Shown one piece after another: positions 20,281-28,948 of a stretch of DNA of 64,000 nucleotides. The notes beneath the pieces were generated by a model. The model was not told where the DNA came from. It was given only the letters and a program-made list of their open reading frames with translations, and made no database searches. The DNA is from Chryseolinea serpens. Lineage in GTDB: Bacteria; Bacteroidota; Bacteroidia; Cytophagales; Cyclobacteriaceae. The stretch's first letter is position 1. Every line of letters begins with the position of its first letter. The translations under genes and the position numbers were made by a program. The stretch covers positions 1,674,001 to 1,738,000 of the forward strand of contig NZ_FQWQ01000001.1 of NCBI RefSeq assembly GCF_900129725.1. Direction: 5' to 3'.

Positions 20281-21297
20281 TCACCGACAGGCAGACGGCA
20301 ATTTGTCGGCCGGCATTTCACCCCGGGTCACCGCCTTGGCATAATAGGGACATGCACCCTTCGCATCCCCCGACAACCGGAGGGCGTCGCCCAGGTAAAC
20401 ATAGATGCGGTCGATGAAGGGATCCATCTCTTCCGCTTGCTTGAACAAACGGAGCGCTTCTTTTTCCTGGTGGGTCATCAGGTAATAAATGCCTTTGTTC
20501 CGGTAAGCCCAACCGTTGTAAGGATCCAGCCCAATGCTCAGGTCGATGTCTTTGCGCCCGTTCTCCACATCGCCGGTCAGCAGCGCAATGTAGCCGCGGT
20601 TGTTCAGGAAGAAGGGGTCTCTGGGGTGGAGTGTCAGGGCTTCTGCCAGTTGTTTCCGGGCATCGTCATATTTTTGCAATTCAATGTCCACCATCGCCAA
20701 CGCATTGTAGGCATTGGCTTCTTGGGGATCCAGGCGCAACGCGTGTTCAAAGTTCAGACGCGCGCTGTCGTATTGTTTTTTATAGTAATGCACGGTGCCC
20801 AGGTTCACCCAGATCTCGGCGTTCTTGCTGTCCAACACGCCGGCGAATTTGAACGCGTCGCGGGCACGATCGAATTCCCGCAGCCGGGTATGGATCAACC
20901 CCTTTGAAAACCAGGCCACCGCTGTATCGGGTTTATGCATGATCACATAGTCGATATCCTTCATGGCCCGGTAATACTCCTTCAACTCATAGGCCGTGTT
21001 CGCGCGATTGAAATAGGCATCCAGGTAGTCAGGGTAACAGGCGACGGCATGATCATAATCTTCCAGCGCCTCCTGGTATTTCGATTTATTAAAGTGCAAG
21101 GTCCCCAGGTTGTTCCAGGCATCGGCAAAACACGAATCGAGTTTCAACGCTTCACGCAAATAATGCTCCGCCTCATCCGGCTTCTGATTTTTGATCATAT
21201 CATTACTCTGCAACAAAAACCGTTGCAACCGGGTCTCCTTGCTGTCGCTACAGGCCAGCAACACCAACCCCAACATCATAACCATCCCTCTCTTCAT
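20281..21297 (-). CDS. TPR-repeat lipoprotein
   Basis: 338 residues. The signal peptide has a lipobox cysteine (LGLVLLAC), then about seven tetratricopeptide repeats in a row (for example ADAWNNLGTLHFNKSKYQEALEDYDHA and IWVNLGTVHYYKKQYDSARLNFEHA), which form a helical scaffold for protein binding. No catalytic residues are visible. It probably works in the periplasm, anchored to a membrane. Its stop codon almost touches the palindromic element. The partner is unknown. Confidence 0.85.
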   Translation of the reverse strand: MKRGMVMMLGLVLLACSDSKETRLQRFLLQSNDMIKNQKPDEAEHYLREALKLDSCFADAWNNLGTLHFNKSKYQEALEDYDHAVACYPDYLDAYFNRANTAYELKEYYRAMKDIDYVIMHKPDTAVAWFSKGLIHTRLREFDRARDAFKFAGVLDSKNAEIWVNLGTVHYYKKQYDSARLNFEHALRLDPQEANAYNALAMVDIELQKYDDARKQLAEALTLHPRDPFFLNNRGYIALLTGDVENGRKDIDLSIGLDPYNGWAYRNKGIYYLMTHQEKEALRLFKQAEEMDPFIDRIYVYLGDALRLSGDAKGACPYYAKAVTRGEMPADKLPSACR

Positions 21298-21693
21298 ACG
21301 CTATAAAAACTATACATCCATTTTTAAAACTCACTCCAACCTAAACCCACACCCCTTAACGTTCGTTCGTATCCAAGCCAAGGGGCTCTCTCCTGAATTA
21401 ATCCACCACGCGTTCGGGCAGGCACATCCATCCCCGTCCCCCATCCTTACTCCCTCCATTCCCAAAACCCAATCACGTTTGTTGGTGTCCCACCAACAAA
21501 TCACCCTCCCTTTCCCCCTCCTCACCTCAAGCCTTCCCCCAATCCTTACACTCCCCCGTTGCAAAAACACCCGCAAGCTAACTACCGTACGGTTCCAAAA
21601 CTAAACTCAACAGAATGAAAAATGGTCTTTTTGGTTTTTATCCCAGTCAAAATTTTGAGATTAAAGAACTATTTGATTTCTTAGCACCCGCAA
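21298..21693. other. Gap upstream of the histidine leader
   Basis: About 400 bp of pyrimidine-rich sequence (many CCTCC and CCCCC runs) between the divergent TPR gene and the his leader. It contains one TTTGTTGGTG-type palindrome and probably the his promoter, for which no exact TAnnTTTG box was found. The closest candidate is TTG at 21631 with AAATTTTG at 21650-21657. No credible gene is seen. Confidence 0.6.
21478..21500. repeat. TTTGTTGGTG/CACCAACAAA palindrome copy
   Basis: A perfect 10-bp inverted repeat with a 3-nt loop (TCC). It is one of eight copies of this motif in the window (one with a decayed right arm), here isolated in the pyrimidine-rich gap before the histidine leader. Confidence 0.85.
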
Positions 21694-21771
21694 ATGAGAA
21701 ACGCCATCAACAACAGCAACCACCACCATCATCATGTGAAGCACACGATGCGTGGCACGGCTGTATCTTGA
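21694..21771 (+). CDS. hisL: Histidine operon leader peptide
   Basis: A 25-codon frame starting at ATG 21694 and ending TGA 21769-21771. Codons 10-14 are five consecutive histidines (CAC CAC CAT CAT CAT, 21721-21735) and codon 17 is another (21742-21744), in the pattern SNHHHHHVKH. It precedes a terminator and then hisG, so ribosome stalling at the His codons when charged tRNA-His is scarce is the evident role. It is similar in idea to the enterobacterial hisL, although the sequence is unrelated. It is too short for routine gene callers. Confidence 0.88.
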   Translation: MRNAINNSNHHHHHVKHTMRGTAVS

Positions 21772-21830
21772 TCGATCATAAAAGATTTTCAAAAGGCTTG
21801 TCACCGCGTGTGGCAAGCCTTTTTTGTTTT
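21752..21830 (+). promoter_or_regulatory. Transcription attenuator of the histidine operon
   Basis: Terminator: an 11-bp stem (21794-21804 with 21810-21820, one G-U pair, 5-nt loop) followed by TTTTTGTTTT. Antiterminator: leader bases 21752-21762 can pair with the left terminator arm 21794-21804 at 9 of 11 positions. A ribosome stalled on the His codons leaves 21752-21762 free, so the antiterminator forms. A ribosome that reaches the stop codon covers it, so the terminator forms. This reading is inferred from base pairing and follows the known his attenuation logic. Confidence 0.82.
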
Positions 21831-21854
21831 ACTAGTTAATGCTGAATAAAAAAA

Positions 21855-22715
21855 ATGAACACCTTACTTCGCATCGCCATTCAAAAATCCGGACGCCTCC
21901 AGGAAGGTTCGCTCGAACTCCTCAAAGAAAGCGGCCTTTCTTTTAGCAATGGCAAAGACCAACTCAAAACCCAGGCCCGCAATTTCCCCGTGGAAGTATT
22001 GTTCCTCCGCGACGACGACATCCCCCAATACGTCGAAGACAAAGTGGCCGATGTGGGGCTGGTGGGTGAAAATGTTTTCGCTGAAAAGAAAAAGAAGAAC
22101 CAGATCGTGAAACGTCTCGACTTCGCCAAGTGCCGTCTCTCCATCGCCATTCCCCGCTCCGAAACCTATGGCGGTATCGCTTCCCTCCAGGGAAAAAACA
22201 TCGCTACCTCCTACCCCAACATCGTCAAGGATTTTCTGCAGAAACACAACATCACGGCCGGCATACACGAGATCAGCGGCTCCGTTGAAATTGCTCCCGG
22301 CATTGGGTTGGCTGACGCCATCTGCGATATTGTGAGCACGGGAAGCACCTTGCTGGGCAATGGTCTAAAAGAAGTGGAAACGGTCATGCAATCGGAAGCG
22401 GTGATCATTGCCAATCCCGAGCTGGGGCCGGAGAAGCAAAAAATACTCGACAAACTTTTATTCCGCATCGAGGCGGTGAAGAAGGCGAAGAATAATAAGT
22501 ATATCCTCATGAATTGCCCGAACGAGTCGATCGAGAAGATCACGACGGTTATTCCGGGGATGAAGAGCCCGACCATCATTCCGTTGGGCCGGCCAGGGTG
22601 GAGTTCGTTGCATTCGGTGGTGGATGAGAATGATTTTTGGGAGAAGATCGATTTGCTTCGGGAGTGTGGGGCGGAGGGGATATTGGTCATTCCAATTGAG
22701 AAGATGATTGTGTAG
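21855..22715 (+). CDS. hisG: ATP phosphoribosyltransferase, long form (histidine step 1)
   Basis: Joins ATP and PRPP to give phosphoribosyl-ATP. 286 residues is the long HisG_L form, with a C-terminal ACT-like regulatory domain (about 210-286, KYILMNCPNESIEKITTVIPG) that binds histidine for feedback inhibition. Consistent with this, no hisZ is present in the operon. The PRPP-site region DAICDIVSTGSTLLGNGLKEV is conserved. It is the first structural gene, 24 bp after the attenuator T-run. Confidence 0.97.
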   Translation: MNTLLRIAIQKSGRLQEGSLELLKESGLSFSNGKDQLKTQARNFPVEVLFLRDDDIPQYVEDKVADVGLVGENVFAEKKKKNQIVKRLDFAKCRLSIAIPRSETYGGIASLQGKNIATSYPNIVKDFLQKHNITAGIHEISGSVEIAPGIGLADAICDIVSTGSTLLGNGLKEVETVMQSEAVIIANPELGPEKQKILDKLLFRIEAVKKAKNNKYILMNCPNESIEKITTVIPGMKSPTIIPLGRPGWSSLHSVVDENDFWEKIDLLRECGAEGILVIPIEKMIV

Positions 22716-22781: not shown

Positions 22782-24062
22782 ATGAAAATATTTGATAATC
22801 CTGCCAGAGATAGCTGGTCTGGGCTGTTGCAACGGCCGCAATTGGAGTTGGAGTTTTTGGAAGGTGCTGTTCGCAATGTTTTGAATCGTGTGAAGAAGTC
22901 GGGCGATAGTGCGGTCAGAGAACTAACGCTTCAATTTGATAAAGTTTCGGTGGAAGCGCTGCAGGTTACGGATGCAGAGCTAGCGGAGGCAACGGCTTCG
23001 CTACCCGATGATTTGAAAAAGGCTATCCAAACGGCAGCGGCCAACATCGAGAAATTTCATGCGGCGCAGAAACGTGAACCGGTGAAGGTCGAGACCACGC
23101 CGGGGGTTACGTGCTGGCGCAAGGCGGTGGCAATAGATAAAGTAGGGATTTATATTCCCGGGGGATCGGCCCCGTTGTTTTCCACGGTGTTGATGCTGGG
23201 CATACCGGCAAAGCTCGCGGGCTGTCGCGAAGTGGTGTTGTGTTCGCCCCCCGACAAGTCGGGAAAGATCAATGCCGCCATTTTGTTTGCAGCACAATTG
23301 GTGGGTGTCAAAAAGATATTCAAGGTGGGTGGCGCGCAGGCCATTGCGGCCATGGCCTATGGGACGGAAAGCATTCCGAATGTGTACAAGATCTTCGGAC
23401 CCGGCAATCAATACGTGACCAAAGCCAAGCAGCTCATCATGGAAGACGGCGTGGCCATCGACATGCCGGCGGGTCCCTCGGAGGTGTTGGTGATGGCGGA
23501 TGAGTCGGCCGTGGCGTCGTTTGTTGCAGCCGATTTGTTGTCGCAAGCCGAACACGGCGAAGACAGCCAGGTGATCCTGGTGCTCAACAACGACAAAAAT
23601 GTAGCGGCCATTCAGGAAGCGATCCAACAACAACTCAGCACCCTTCCCCGCAAGGCCATTGCCGAGAAGGCATTGCTGAACAGCCGTGTGGTGATCCTGC
23701 CCAAAAAAGAGGCCATCGATTTTGTGAATGCCTATGCACCCGAACACCTCATCATCAACATGAACGACCCCGAGGGCATCGCCGCCGAGATCGTCAACGC
23801 CGGCTCGGTGTTCCTGGGGAACTATTCACCCGAAGCCATCGGCGACTACGCTTCAGGCACCAACCATACCCTGCCCACCAACGGCCACGCCAAGGCCTTT
23901 GCCGGTGTGGCGCTGGAAAGCTTTGTGAAATACATTACCTATCAACAGCTCACCCCCGAGGGGCTCCGTAATTTGGGCCCGGTCGTAGAAAAAATGGCAG
24001 AAGCCGAACAACTGGACGGCCACAAAATGGCGATCCGGGTTCGTCTTGAGAAACTGAAATAA
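22782..24062 (+). CDS. hisD: Histidinol dehydrogenase (last two steps)
   Basis: Oxidises L-histidinol to histidine with two NAD. 426 residues, normal length. Conserved blocks include TPGVTCWRKAVAIDKVGIYIPGG, the KVGGAQAIAAMAYGTE region, GPGNQYVTKAKQ, and the metal and catalytic block LLSQAEHGEDSQVILV, with the C-terminal YAPEHLIINM and SGTNHTLPT containing the His and Glu ligands. Translation begins at ATG 22782. It is the second gene of the operon. Confidence 0.97.
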   Translation: MKIFDNPARDSWSGLLQRPQLELEFLEGAVRNVLNRVKKSGDSAVRELTLQFDKVSVEALQVTDAELAEATASLPDDLKKAIQTAAANIEKFHAAQKREPVKVETTPGVTCWRKAVAIDKVGIYIPGGSAPLFSTVLMLGIPAKLAGCREVVLCSPPDKSGKINAAILFAAQLVGVKKIFKVGGAQAIAAMAYGTESIPNVYKIFGPGNQYVTKAKQLIMEDGVAIDMPAGPSEVLVMADESAVASFVAADLLSQAEHGEDSQVILVLNNDKNVAAIQEAIQQQLSTLPRKAIAEKALLNSRVVILPKKEAIDFVNAYAPEHLIINMNDPEGIAAEIVNAGSVFLGNYSPEAIGDYASGTNHTLPTNGHAKAFAGVALESFVKYITYQQLTPEGLRNLGPVVEKMAEAEQLDGHKMAIRVRLEKLK

Positions 24063-24087: not shown

Positions 24088-25122
24088 ATGGACATCCAAG
24101 CCCTGGTGCGCAAGAACATTCTCAACATGAAGCCCTACTCGTCGGCCCGCGACGAGTTCAAGGGCACCGCGGAGATCTTTCTCGACGCCAACGAAAATCC
24201 TTATCCTTCGCCTTACAATCGCTACCCCGATCCGCTGCAGTGGCGCGTCAAAGAAAAGCTGGCCGCGCTCAAAGGCGTGAAACCGGAACAGATCTTTCTC
24301 GGCAACGGCAGCGACGAAGGCATCGATCTCATCATTCGTGCATTCTGCGAACCGAACCAGGACTCGATCCTCATCACCGACCCCACCTACGGCATGTATT
24401 CCGTCTGCGCCGAAGTGAACGCCGTGAACGTGCAACAAGTATTGCTCACCCCCGACTTCGACCTCGACCTGGATGCGTTCCCCAAAACATTCGACGCCAC
24501 TACCAAAGTACTCTTCCTTTGCAGTCCCAATAACCCCACGGGCAACTTGCTGAGCACCGCCAAGATCGAGGAAGTGTTGAAGCGCTTCTACGGCATTGTG
24601 GTCATCGACGAGGCTTATATTGATTTTGCCACGGGCAAGAGCTTTGTGCAGGAACTCGCACACCATCCCAACCTCGTGGTGCTCCAGACGTTTTCCAAAG
24701 CCTGGGGCTTGGCCGGATTGCGATTGGGGATGTGCTTCGCCTCGGAAGCGATCATCCGCGTGCTCAATAAAATCAAATACCCGTATAATGTGAACATCCG
24801 AACCCAGGAGTTGGCCTTGGATGCGCTGGAGAACGTGCAGCAAAAAGAAGCCTGGGTGAAGGAAGTCGTGAAGCAACGCGACGTCATGGGCAAGGCATTA
24901 CGACAACTTTCGCTCGTGGAACATGTTTATCCCTCCGATGCCAACTTCCTCTTGGCAAAAGTGAAGGACGCACACGGCACCTACGAGTACTTGATGAACC
25001 AAGGCATCATTGTCAGGGATCGTTCGCGGGTGGCATTGTGCTATAACTGTCTGCGCATCACCATCGGCACACCCGAAGAAAACCAACGGCTGCTCGCGGC
25101 CCTGAAAAAATATACAGCATGA
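24088..25122 (+). CDS. hisC: Histidinol-phosphate aminotransferase
   Basis: A PLP enzyme of fold type I that converts imidazole acetol phosphate and glutamate to histidinol phosphate. Lys204 (in [14 protein letters not shown]) binds PLP; the SPNNPTGN and DEAYIDFA motifs are present, and the C-terminal Arg region is [15 protein letters not shown]. At 344 residues it matches the family. Its TGA overlaps the ATG of hisB by 4 nt (ATGA), so the two are translationally coupled. Confidence 0.97.
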
Positions 25123-26234
25123 AAAAAGTACTCTTCATCGACCGCGACGGCACCCTCATCCTCGAACCCGCCGACGAGCAGATCGACAGCCTCGAAAAAC
25201 TGGAATATTACCCCGGCGTGTTCAACGGGCTTGCCAAAATTGCCCGCGACACTGACTATGAATTGGTGATCGTCACCAACCAGGATGGATTGGGCACATC
25301 AAGCTTCCCGGAAGAAACGTTTTGGCCCGCGCAAAATAAAATGCTGAAGGCCTTTGAAAACGAGGGCATCGTCTTCTCCAAAATTTTTGTAGACCGTTCT
25401 TTTTCAAAAGAAAACAAACCCACCCGGAAACCGGGCACGGGCATGCTCACGGAATTTTTCAACGGACAGTACGATCTGGCCAACTCCTATGTCATCGGCG
25501 ATCGTATCACCGACGTGGAACTCGCCAAGAACCTCGGGGCAAAAGGAATTCTCATCAACAATGGCAACCTCAGGGAAACCCTTTCCGAAAAAGGCCTCGC
25601 GGATTTTTGCTCGCTCGTCACCACGTCATGGAACGACATCTACAAACATGTCGCCACGCCCGACCGCATCGGCACCGTGACCCGCACGACGAAAGAGACC
25701 GACATTCGCATCACCCTAAACCTGGACGGTCAGGGTAAATCGCGCATCAGCACCGGTCTTGGATTTTTCGATCACATGCTCGACCAACTGGCCCGTCACG
25801 GCAACATGGACCTCGACATCGCGGTGAAGGGCGATCTGCACATCGACGAGCACCACACCATCGAAGACACGGCCCTGGCCCTGGGAGAAGCCTTCCTCCA
25901 GGCCCTCGGCAACAAACGCGGCATCGAACGCTATGGCTTCTGTCTGCCCATGGACGACTGCCTGGCGCAAGTGGCCATCGACTTTGGAGGGCGGCCCTGG
26001 TTGGTTTGGGATGCGGCGTTCAAGCGTGAAAAGATCGGCGAGATGCCCACGGAAATGTTTTTCCATTTCTTCAAATCGCTTTCCGACACCTCCAAGAGCA
26101 ACCTCAACATCAAGGCCGAAGGCGACAACGAACATCACAAGATCGAGGCCATTTTCAAAGCGTTTGCCAAAGCCATCAAGATGGCAGTGAAGCGCGAAGG
26201 CAACCAACTGCCCACGACCAAGGGAGTCCTTTAA
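25119..26234 (+). CDS. hisB: Bifunctional histidinol-phosphatase / imidazoleglycerol-phosphate dehydratase
   Basis: Fused enzyme. The N-terminal HAD phosphatase (about 1-165) has the nucleophile motif FIDRDGTL and a [18 protein letters not shown] end. The C-terminal IGP dehydratase (about 178-371) has the repeated Mn-binding motifs DEHHTIED and DNEHHKIEA and the start [16 protein letters not shown]. The fusion order is the same as in Escherichia coli and is common in Bacteroidota. It overlaps hisC by 4 nt and is followed after 18 bp by hisH. Confidence 0.97.
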
Positions 26235-26252: not shown

Positions 26253-26837
26253 ATGAAGCTTGTCATCATAAAATATAACGCCGGCAACATCCAGTCCGTG
26301 TCCTTCGCACTGGAACGGCTGGGCGTGGACTTTGCCATCACCGACAATGCAGAGGAGATCCGGAAGGCCGACAAAGTGATCTTTCCCGGTGTGGGCGAAG
26401 CGAGTACTACCATGCACTATCTCCGCGACCACAAATTGGACCAGGTGATCACGGCGTTGAAGCAACCCGTGCTCGGCATTTGCCTGGGCATGCAGCTGAT
26501 GTGCACGTTCTCGGAAGAAAACAACACCGAATGCCTGGGCATCTTTGGCGAGACGGTAAAACGATTTATTCCGCAAGGCGACCTGAAGGTCCCCCATATG
26601 GGATGGAACAACCTAACCCTGAGCGACAGTTGGATCGATCGCAGCGTGGATCATCAGTACGCCTATTTCGTACACAGTTTTTACGTCCCTGTAAATGCAC
26701 ACACGTCGGCTACCACGGAATACATCGCTCCGTTCAGTGCCGCCATGCACAAAGACAATTTCTACGCCGTACAATTTCACCCGGAAAAATCGGCCGAGAC
26801 CGGCGAACGTGTATTAAAAAGTTTCTTAGCCCTTTGA
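26253..26837 (+). CDS. hisH: Imidazole glycerol phosphate synthase, glutaminase subunit
   Basis: A class I glutamine amidotransferase that feeds ammonia to HisF. The nucleophile is Cys77 (LGICLGMQL); the catalytic His and Glu are in YAVQFHPEKS near the C-terminus. The 194 residues are typical. It is followed by hisA after 4 bp. Together with hisF it makes IGP and AICAR. Confidence 0.97.
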   Translation: MKLVIIKYNAGNIQSVSFALERLGVDFAITDNAEEIRKADKVIFPGVGEASTTMHYLRDHKLDQVITALKQPVLGICLGMQLMCTFSEENNTECLGIFGETVKRFIPQGDLKVPHMGWNNLTLSDSWIDRSVDHQYAYFVHSFYVPVNAHTSATTEYIAPFSAAMHKDNFYAVQFHPEKSAETGERVLKSFLAL

Positions 26838-26841
26838 CACC

Positions 26842-27555
26842 ATGAGAATCATTCCTGCTATCGACATTATCGACGGAAAATGTGTACGCCTCACCCAGGG
26901 CGACTACGCCCAGAAAAAAATATACCACGAAGATCCCGTTTCCGTGGCGCGCTCCTTTGAAGAAGCCGGCCTGACCGACCTCCACGTGGTGGACCTCGAC
27001 GGTGCCAAAGCCGGCAAGGTCGTCAACTGGAGCGTGGTGGAAGCCATCTGCAAAGCCACATCGCTCACGGTCGATTTTGGTGGCGGCATAAAAACAGAAG
27101 ACGAAGTGCAGCGATTGCTCAACCTCGGTGTGAAGCAAGTGAACCTGGGCAGTGTCGCCGTGAAAGAGCCGCTGAAAGTGATCTCCTGGATCACGAAGTT
27201 CGGCAAAGACAAGATCATTCTCAGTGCCGACGTCAAAGGCGACTATGTGGCCATCAGCGGGTGGCAGGAAAGCTCCCCCCTCACCCTCGCATCCCTGCTG
27301 AAGGACTACACGCGCAACGGCATCGAGTATGTTACCTGCACCGACATCAGCACGGACGGCATGCTGAAGGGACCGAACATCGAATTGTACAAAAACATTC
27401 TCATGAGCTTCCCCCAACTGCATCTCGTGGCCAGCGGCGGCGTAAGCAATCTCGACGACCTGAGAGAATTGAAACGCATCGGCGCCGACGGCGTCATCGT
27501 GGGCAAAGCCATCTACGAAGGCAAAGTGACATTGGAAGAACTAACTACTATATAA
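26842..27555 (+). CDS. hisA: ProFAR isomerase
   Basis: A (beta/alpha)8 barrel that isomerises the ribosyl aldose to the ribulosyl ketose. The catalytic Asp near the N-terminus is in [14 protein letters not shown] and the second in [14 protein letters not shown]; both halves have the phosphate-binding glycine loops ([11 protein letters not shown] and [12 protein letters not shown]). 237 residues. It is closely spaced with hisH and hisF. Confidence 0.97.
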
Positions 27556-27563
27556 CCCCTGGC

Positions 27564-28319
27564 ATGCTGACCAAACGCATTATTCCTTGTCTGGATATCA
27601 AAGACGGTCGCACCGTGAAGGGTGTGAACTTCGTCAACATCCGCGATGCCGGCGACCCGGTGGAGCTGGGCGCCACGTATGCGCGTCAGGGCGCGGACGA
27701 GTTGGTGTTCCTCGACATCTCCGCGACCAACGAAGAACGCAAGACCTTTGCTTCGCTGGTAAAAGACATTGCCCGTCACATCAACATTCCGTTCACCGTA
27801 GGCGGCGGCATCAGTTCGGTGGCAGATGTGGCTCCGTTGCTGGAAGCGGGTGCCGACAAAGTGAGCATCAACTCTGCTGCGGTGCGAAACCCGCAGCTGA
27901 TCGACGAATTGTCGCGAGCCTTTGGTGCACAATGCATCGTGCTGGCCATCGACGCCCGCAAGATCGACAACCAGTGGACGGTGCACACGCACGGCGGCAA
28001 GAAGCCCACCGACAAAAAACTTTTCTCCTGGGCCAAGGAAGGACAAGAACGCGGCGCGGGCGAGATCCTTTTCACCAGCATGGACCACGACGGCACGAAA
28101 CACGGGTTTGCCATTGACCCGCTGAGCAAACTCAACGCCCTCTTGCAAATTCCCGTCATCGCTTCCGGCGGCGCCGGCAACAAAGAGCATTTTATCGACG
28201 CCTTTGTCCTGGGCAAAGCCGACGCGGCATTGGCCGCCAGCATCTTCCACTTTGGGGAGGTGAAAATACCTGAACTGAAATCGTTCCTCGATGAAAAGAA
28301 CATCGTGATTCGTCCCTGA
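27564..28319 (+). CDS. hisF: Imidazole glycerol phosphate synthase, cyclase subunit
   Basis: A barrel enzyme that closes the imidazole ring using ammonia from HisH. The N-terminal [16 protein letters not shown] carries the catalytic Asp11, and [12 protein letters not shown] carries the second Asp. The phosphate loops are VGGGISS and [10 protein letters not shown]. The start is ATG 27564, 8 bp after hisA; the frame is open further upstream inside hisA, but those residues are not HisF. 251 residues, standard. Confidence 0.97.
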
Positions 28320-28351
28320 ACAAGTAAAGCGTACCAAAAAAATTGAATGCC

Positions 28352-28948
28352 ATGAATGATCTCACCATAAACTTCAGCAAACAAGACGGCCTCGTGCCTT
28401 GTGTCATACAAGATGTAAAAACCTTACGCGTGCTCATGCTGGGGTTCATGAACGAAGATGCCTATAAAAAAACACTTCAGGAAAAGAGAGTGACCTTCTT
28501 CAGCCGCAGCAAACAACGCCTCTGGACCAAGGGCGAGACCTCCGGCAACTTCCTCAACCTGGTCGACATCGCGGTCGACTGTGACAACGATACGCTGCTG
28601 ATCAAAGTAATTCCCGAAGGCCCGGTTTGCCACACGGGAGCCGACACGTGCTTTAATGAAAAAAATGAGCGGTGGGATCTTGCTGCGTTGGAACAGATCA
28701 TTCAAGACCGAAAGAACAACCCGACCCAGGCATCCTACACGACATCCCTCATCCAAAAAGGCATCAACAAAGTAGCACAGAAAGTAGGCGAAGAAGCCGT
28801 TGAACTCATCATCGAGGCGAAGGATAACAATACGGACCTCTTCCTGAACGAAGCCGCAGACCTGATGTATCACTACCTGGTTTTACTGGCAGCAAAAAAT
28901 CACTCGCTCGCGGATGTGCTGGCCGTTCTAAAGAAACGACAAAAGTAA
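28352..28948 (+). CDS. hisI: Bifunctional phosphoribosyl-AMP cyclohydrolase / phosphoribosyl-ATP pyrophosphatase
   Basis: HisIE fusion for steps 2 and 3. The N-terminal cyclohydrolase (about 1-110) has the metal motifs DCDNDTLLIKV and GPVCHTGADTCF and the TKGETSGNFL stretch. The C-terminal pyrophosphatase (about 115-198) has KVGEEAVELIIEAKD and NEAADLMYHYLVLL. The ATG at 28352 is preferred to a TTG at 28343. It is the last gene of a complete eight-gene pathway; only PRPP synthesis lies outside. No obvious terminator follows before the convergent flavoprotein gene. Confidence 0.96.
   Translation: MNDLTINFSKQDGLVPCVIQDVKTLRVLMLGFMNEDAYKKTLQEKRVTFFSRSKQRLWTKGETSGNFLNLVDIAVDCDNDTLLIKVIPEGPVCHTGADTCFNEKNERWDLAALEQIIQDRKNNPTQASYTTSLIQKGINKVAQKVGEEAVELIIEAKDNNTDLFLNEAADLMYHYLVLLAAKNHSLADVLAVLKKRQK

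Follow-up and report, generated by a model that had tools for sequence, protein, structure and literature searches.

The histidine operon of Chryseolinea serpens is very probably controlled by ribosome-mediated (leader-peptide) transcription attenuation. In the window (the whole stretch of DNA analysed, 64 kb) a short reading frame with a run of His codons, an antiterminator and a terminator lie directly ahead of hisG (Table 1). By all sequence tests the attenuator appears genuine; though well made, it is an ordinary case of a known device. Of specialist interest are the range of such leaders in the phylum and an apparent terminator-less design, both of which lie beyond the window. The genus Chryseolinea belongs to Cytophagales, Bacteroidota (NCBI taxonomy).

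The leader and the histidine operon

The eight-gene operon hisG-D-C-B-H-A-F-IE is headed by hisG, which follows the leader stop codon at a spacing of 83 nt. All eight his genes exceed the cut-off of the respective NCBIfam equivalog or equivalog-domain model. The left neighbour gene (20281-21297) lies on the opposite strand and is TPR-protein-like, under every cut-off.

The initial annotation described a frame of 25 codons with His at codons 10-14 and 17, and direct reading bears this out. Among ATG frames of 8-50 codons on both strands of the 64 kb, it alone contains four or more His codons in a row. When 21601-21854 was shuffled 2000 times with its dinucleotides preserved, no short ATG frame with such a run arose. 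The leader is present in all six genomes of the genus that were searched; its His run reads HHHHH in five of them and HHRHH in the sixth. Among relatives the His run is conserved with synonymous changes, as had been anticipated: in 56 distinct aligned rows CAC and CAT interchange while His is retained, with few exceptions, and both codons are used in 140 of 187 leaders. This interchange speaks indirectly for translation of the leader, which is probably translated. A 74-aa frame (21615-21839) overlaps the leader in another reading frame.

A possible promoter lies just upstream of the leader. The Bacteroidota -7 box has the consensus TAnnTTTG; the candidate in the window is a weak match to this type and the exact box is absent. 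Of the 187 leaders, 93 have the exact box in the 60 nt that precede the leader ATG, and in many the box stands just a few bases from it. Farther upstream, at 140-200 nt, the box occurs in 3 of 187, and letter shuffles contain it in 4% of cases. Bacteroidota are weak users of Shine-Dalgarno sites. Together with a promoter box so near the leader ATG, this makes the leaders a natural test of transcription-translation coupling.

Table 1. Coordinates of the attenuator elements and the his genes in the window
Feature	Position	Strand	Details
Possible promoter	21654-21684	+	TTTG 21654-21657, TATTTG 21670-21675, TTTCTTAG 21677-21684; direct reading against the consensus
Leader peptide gene, 25 codons	21694-21771	+	MRNAINNSNHHHHHVKHTMRGTAVS; ATG 21694, TGA stop 21769-21771; direct reading
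His codons 10-14	21721-21735	+	direct reading of leader
His codon 17	21742-21744	+	direct reading of leader
Hairpin 1:2	21731-21749	+	21731-21738 (His codons) with 21742-21749; folding and relatives
Segment 2, antiterminator 5' strand	21752-21762	+	pairs with 21794-21804
Terminator	21791-21825	+	arms 21791-21804 / 21810-21823, loop 21805-21809, T-run 21820-21825
hisG	21855-22715	+	TIGR00070
hisD	22782-24062	+	TIGR00069
hisC	24088-25122	+	TIGR01141
hisB (bifunctional)	25119-26234	+	NF003937
hisH	26253-26837	+	TIGR01855
hisA	26842-27555	+	TIGR00007
hisF	27564-28319	+	TIGR00735; start codon from direct reading
hisIE	28343-28948	+	NF002747; start codon uncertain

Terminator, antiterminator and 1:2 hairpin

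The terminator scan placed a stem of 14 pairs with a 5-nt loop at 21791-21823. The T-run given in the initial annotation is present, and its 11-bp stem was an undercount. Alone, the scan is unselective, with 18 sites in 14 kb where shuffles give 18.4; the his terminator has the most pairs of the 18, the next best having 11. That terminator-like sites are as frequent in the region as in shuffles lends something to the explanation that a plain terminator shields hisG and that the His-rich frame next to it is unrelated or due to chance, with no switching. Against it, the left neighbour is transcribed in the opposite direction, so there is no upstream gene for the terminator to serve and nothing upstream to terminate.

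The 9 of 11 pairs first proposed between segment 2 and the left terminator arm were recovered by direct reading, and the duplex is predicted at -11.8 kcal/mol. The whole region (21680-21850) folds with z = -3.6, and none of 200 shuffles was equally stable. Partial folds, whose end points were set by the ribosome footprint, follow the position of the ribosome. With a ribosome on His 14 and polymerase not past segment 3 (21749-21804) the antiterminator forms (-14.1 kcal/mol), and with a ribosome at the stop codon (21785-21830) the terminator forms (-20.1 kcal/mol). This agrees with the earlier proposal that the geometry suits stalled-ribosome attenuation. When no ribosome is present, the 1:2 hairpin and the terminator coexist. 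Once segment 4 is included, the terminator beats the antiterminator in stability, and the choice must therefore be kinetic, as it likewise is in classical attenuators.

Conservation among relatives

From 132 loci 107 distinct hisG upstream regions were obtained. By the strict rule 84 carry a leader and a T-run terminator, 15 carry a leader only, and 8 have no leader. The alignment holds 59 of the 84 (56 distinct); 24 Chitinophaga-like or long-spacer leaders and L013 were left out. In the 56 distinct leaders the terminator is paired in 91.5% of cells (slid versions at most 62.8%), the antiterminator in 81.4% (at most 50.6%) and hairpin 1:2 in 68.8% (at most 45.3%), with a bias toward the unslid register, as the structures were taken from the window.

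In the terminator 9 of the 14 pairs changed on both sides, and 0 of 500 shuffles were as high on any of five measures; a slide of +3 gave 38 cells with both-side changes and the unslid version 39. The antiterminator covariation score exceeds all 500 shuffles. The number of its pairs with both-side changes is unremarkable (178 of 500 shuffles reach the count), the pair types likewise (94 of 500), and there are 16 cells with both-side changes unslid against up to 28 in slid versions. The compensatory evidence for the antiterminator thus appears moderate only. Its strand is constrained by coding and by the terminator, so such weak compensation is expected, and it is the weaker proof. The alignment accordingly upholds two further expectations of the initial annotation, in that the terminator covaries and the antiterminator register is retained. 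This register, and the joint presence of leader and terminator in most of the distinct regions, also argue against plain insulation of hisG, which is left very improbable.

Departures from the window type were seen. In L009 (G023) the leader ends earlier (MTMTSIVKGQQHHHHHFQ), antiterminator-like sequence is retained past the stop codon, and the covariance model matches with 67 bits. In L091, L093 and other Chitinophaga-like loci four segments were recognised by eye (CTTACC / GGTAGGC / GGCTTACC / GGTAAGCC), the second at the leader end. These would make up a neat 1-2-3-4 attenuator with a sequence unlike that of the window.

Mechanism and alternative explanations

The region holds a short leader frame in which cognate codons stand in a row, and an intrinsic terminator between this leader and the first gene of the cognate pathway. 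An antiterminator that excludes the terminator is conserved in relatives, with moderate compensatory evidence, and the 1:2 hairpin lies where a ribosome on the control codons would open it. These elements, their conservation, their pairing and their fold energies are observations.

In the attenuation mechanism RNA polymerase would start a short way ahead of the leader, with a ribosome behind it. When charged tRNA-His is short, the ribosome probably stalls on the His codons (21721-21744), where it covers segment 1; this would leave 21752-21762 to pair with 21794-21804, no terminator would form, and hisG-IE would be transcribed. When histidine is plentiful, the ribosome would reach the stop codon 21769-21771 and cover segment 2, so that the terminator could form. 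If the leader were left untranslated, the 1:2 hairpin and the terminator would both form and the operon would be off. Translation of the leader, the stalling, the promoter and the response to histidine are inferred from these elements.

A leader could instead act on translation and not on termination, either through reinitiation of the ribosome or by exposing the start of hisG. The available part of PMC4833913 connects reinitiation with short leaders close to gene starts and places the Bacteroidetes peak at 11-14 nt; here leader and hisG are 83 nt apart, with a strong T-run terminator between them, which makes control of translation highly unlikely. Transcription attenuation is the preferred reading.

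Leaders of other amino acids in the same genome

Two further candidate leaders were found in the genome of the window. Upstream of a trpE-like gene (Pfam Chorismate_bind) lies MIKFTNIAWWWHRSGSDM (WWW; L261, 747-803), with no match to Bacteroid-trp at E 0.1, and upstream of pheA (Pfam PDT) lies MTINRTSFYFYYFFSTPTGL (FYFYYFF; L268, 2148-2210, minus strand). By eye, both are followed by a terminator-like hairpin with a T-run. Of the other eight genes fetched, which may not head operons, seven have no evident leader and L266 has no upstream sequence in view. Since the Trp- and Phe/Tyr-rich counterparts stand ahead of trpE-like and pheA genes, and since the peptides vary greatly in length and flanks while their position before hisG is constant, it is scarcely credible that the His-rich peptide is itself functional, for example in metal binding, of which His-rich peptides are capable.

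Range across Bacteroidota

The initial annotation held that Bacteroidota lack most of the usual signals, and considered the leader of interest for that reason. The survey did not sustain this. In a sample uneven across the phylum (best matches and hand-picked regions, with duplicates and regions of less than 250 nt upstream removed), 183 of 229 distinct regions carry a His-rich leader in the 250 nt upstream of hisG. The controls gave 2 of 229 on the reverse strand, 141 of 4580 shuffles and 2 of 131 downstream stretches. The leader rule, a run of 3 or 4 His, misses three-His leaders such as L151 and L168.

By family code the leaders were counted in f22 (5/5), f23 (5/5), f24 (2/2), f25 (14/15), f26 (2/2), f33 (5/6), f40 (4/5), f41 (1/1), f46 (1/2) and f51 (3/3), and in 139 of 163 loci without a family code. 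No His-rich leader was found in the 16 regions of this count that belong to f29, f30, f31, f32, f34, f35, f37, f42, f45 and f47; in 10 of these HisG is just 28-33% identical to that of the window. In f38 neither of two regions has a leader at 250 nt, and L245 passes in a wider upstream stretch. At the f40 loci L239, L240, L242 and L243 a His-rich leader precedes hisG, and the rules recognise no terminator and no stop-codon hairpin there.

A covariance model of the window type has a single match in the genome of the window, at hisG. Across 59 genomes it gave 26 matches at E of at most 0.001, of which 11 adjoin hisG, including the best ten, and 15 weak ones lie elsewhere. The model therefore misses most relatives, whose leaders differ in sequence. 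Judged from these sequences, His-codon leaders are common before hisG in Bacteroidota, and leaders of this kind are partly in print (in the available part of PMC9723704, and as Rfam Bacteroid-trp).

Leaders without a recognised terminator

By the strict rule 128 of the 187 leaders have a terminator and 59 do not. The rule allows no bulge and no loop above 12, and the long-loop terminator of L220 was missed; since some terminators escape it, 59 is an upper bound. Among the terminator-less leaders L100, L104, L105 and L106 were called by the rule alone.

In 30 of the 59 terminator-less leaders a stem of at least 5 pairs has its loop over the leader stop codon (control positions: 2, 2 and 4 of 59); among leaders with a terminator this was seen in 9 of 128 (controls: 4, 7 and 1). 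From the 59, 32 were drawn by a motif filter and 31 of these were used in a hairpin alignment, at least five of which (L028, L029, L138, L139, L144) have a poor hairpin. In the hairpin arms of the 31, C-G pairs are replaced by G-C and by U-A. When 3' halves were swapped between sequences, the mean score fell from 6.08 to 4.66, and the highest value in 500 was 5.25. L171 and L177 retain the hairpin, with the stop codon shifted beyond it. The tails after terminator-less leaders contain C at 0.233 and G at 0.132 (ratio 1.77); the C/G ratio is 1.19 in leaders with a terminator after removal of the stem, and about 1.0 upstream of either type. Taken together, the stop-codon hairpin, the compensatory changes and the C-rich, G-poor tail suggest a terminator-less attenuator variant.

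His-rich leaders that end in HHSS-stop or similar, with a stop-codon hairpin and no T-run terminator by the rule, were found upstream of hisG at L019, L021, L024, L025, L028, L029, L137, L138, L142, L143, L145-L149, L151-L155, L168, L170, L180, L182, L186 and L188, and also at L197 and L199. L013 is the exception, as it has the HHSS-stop motif yet was scored as having a terminator. Outside the family of the window, L230 and L231 (f22) have leaders that end in HHRR-stop. Their stop codon is spanned by the hairpin ATCGCC-GATA-GGCGAT, and the rule finds no terminator.

In a HisG tree made by a quick method from 63 of 114 usable rows, 13 of 18 terminator-less rows fall in one group (support 81). 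The terminator label changes at least four times, with two changes forced by starred branches; the shuffled mean is 16.1.

In the terminator-less design the hairpin would stay open, and the operon on, for as long as a ribosome sat on the His codons, and a Rho-type mechanism may be at work. Whether His leader-peptide control is old and general in Bacteroidota, with two designs replacing each other, we regard as evenly balanced. One design would be the terminator attenuator. The other would rely on a hairpin that lies right behind the last His codons and mostly has the stop codon in its loop (as in HHFHHSS-stop). This hairpin would control whether a C-rich, G-poor tail is accessible, perhaps to Rho.

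The view that Bacteroidota lack classical attenuation is thus replaced by a testable picture. It comprises His-codon leaders in many sampled families, Trp and Phe counterparts in the genome of the window, a His leader with no matching Rfam family, and signs of a second, terminator-less design.

Comparison with known systems

The enterobacterial his attenuator has a leader with His codons and mutually exclusive antiterminator and terminator structures before hisG. The window is alike in architecture and differs from it in sequence, promoter type and phylum. No Rfam family reached its gathering score in the 64-kb window, and a T-box or riboswitch was rejected on this ground. Membership in RF00514 (His_leader) was rejected because that family is absent among 11 matches up to E 5 in 21600-21900, and membership in RF01692 (Bacteroid-trp) because it scored 26.7 bits (E 0.5) against a gathering score of 49.

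The sources that follow were available in part, and the statements refer to those parts. A literature search, mostly of papers outside subscription, found no account of His leaders across Bacteroidota or of the stop-codon hairpin. Leader-like short frames are mentioned in Bacteroides (PMC7366714), and the word "leader" is absent from the available text of PMC8305728 on the his genes of the superphylum. In Actinobacteria no conserved RNA structure was reported upstream of histidine operons (PMC1262725). Rfam then held four amino-acid attenuators, and a gamma-proteobacterial origin was considered possible (PMC3766115), with which the observed range of His leaders sits badly.

Closer parallels exist. 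Bacteroid-trp, listed in PMC2864571, is likewise a Bacteroidetes leader-peptide RNA before an amino-acid operon; it serves tryptophan, whereas the window leader has no Trp codons. For Flavobacterium psychrophilum (2021) strong hints of leader-peptide attenuation ahead of amino-acid operons were described, and a structured hisG 5' element without an Rfam match occurs there and in other Flavobacteriaceae genera (PMC9723704). This element shares phylum and gene with the window and comes from another family, the comparison being with its published description. The leaders of hisZ and of a hisS paralogue in bacilli (PMC2965389) resemble that of the window in having a stretch of His codons in a leader with a premature terminator, and differ from it in phylum and in target genes.
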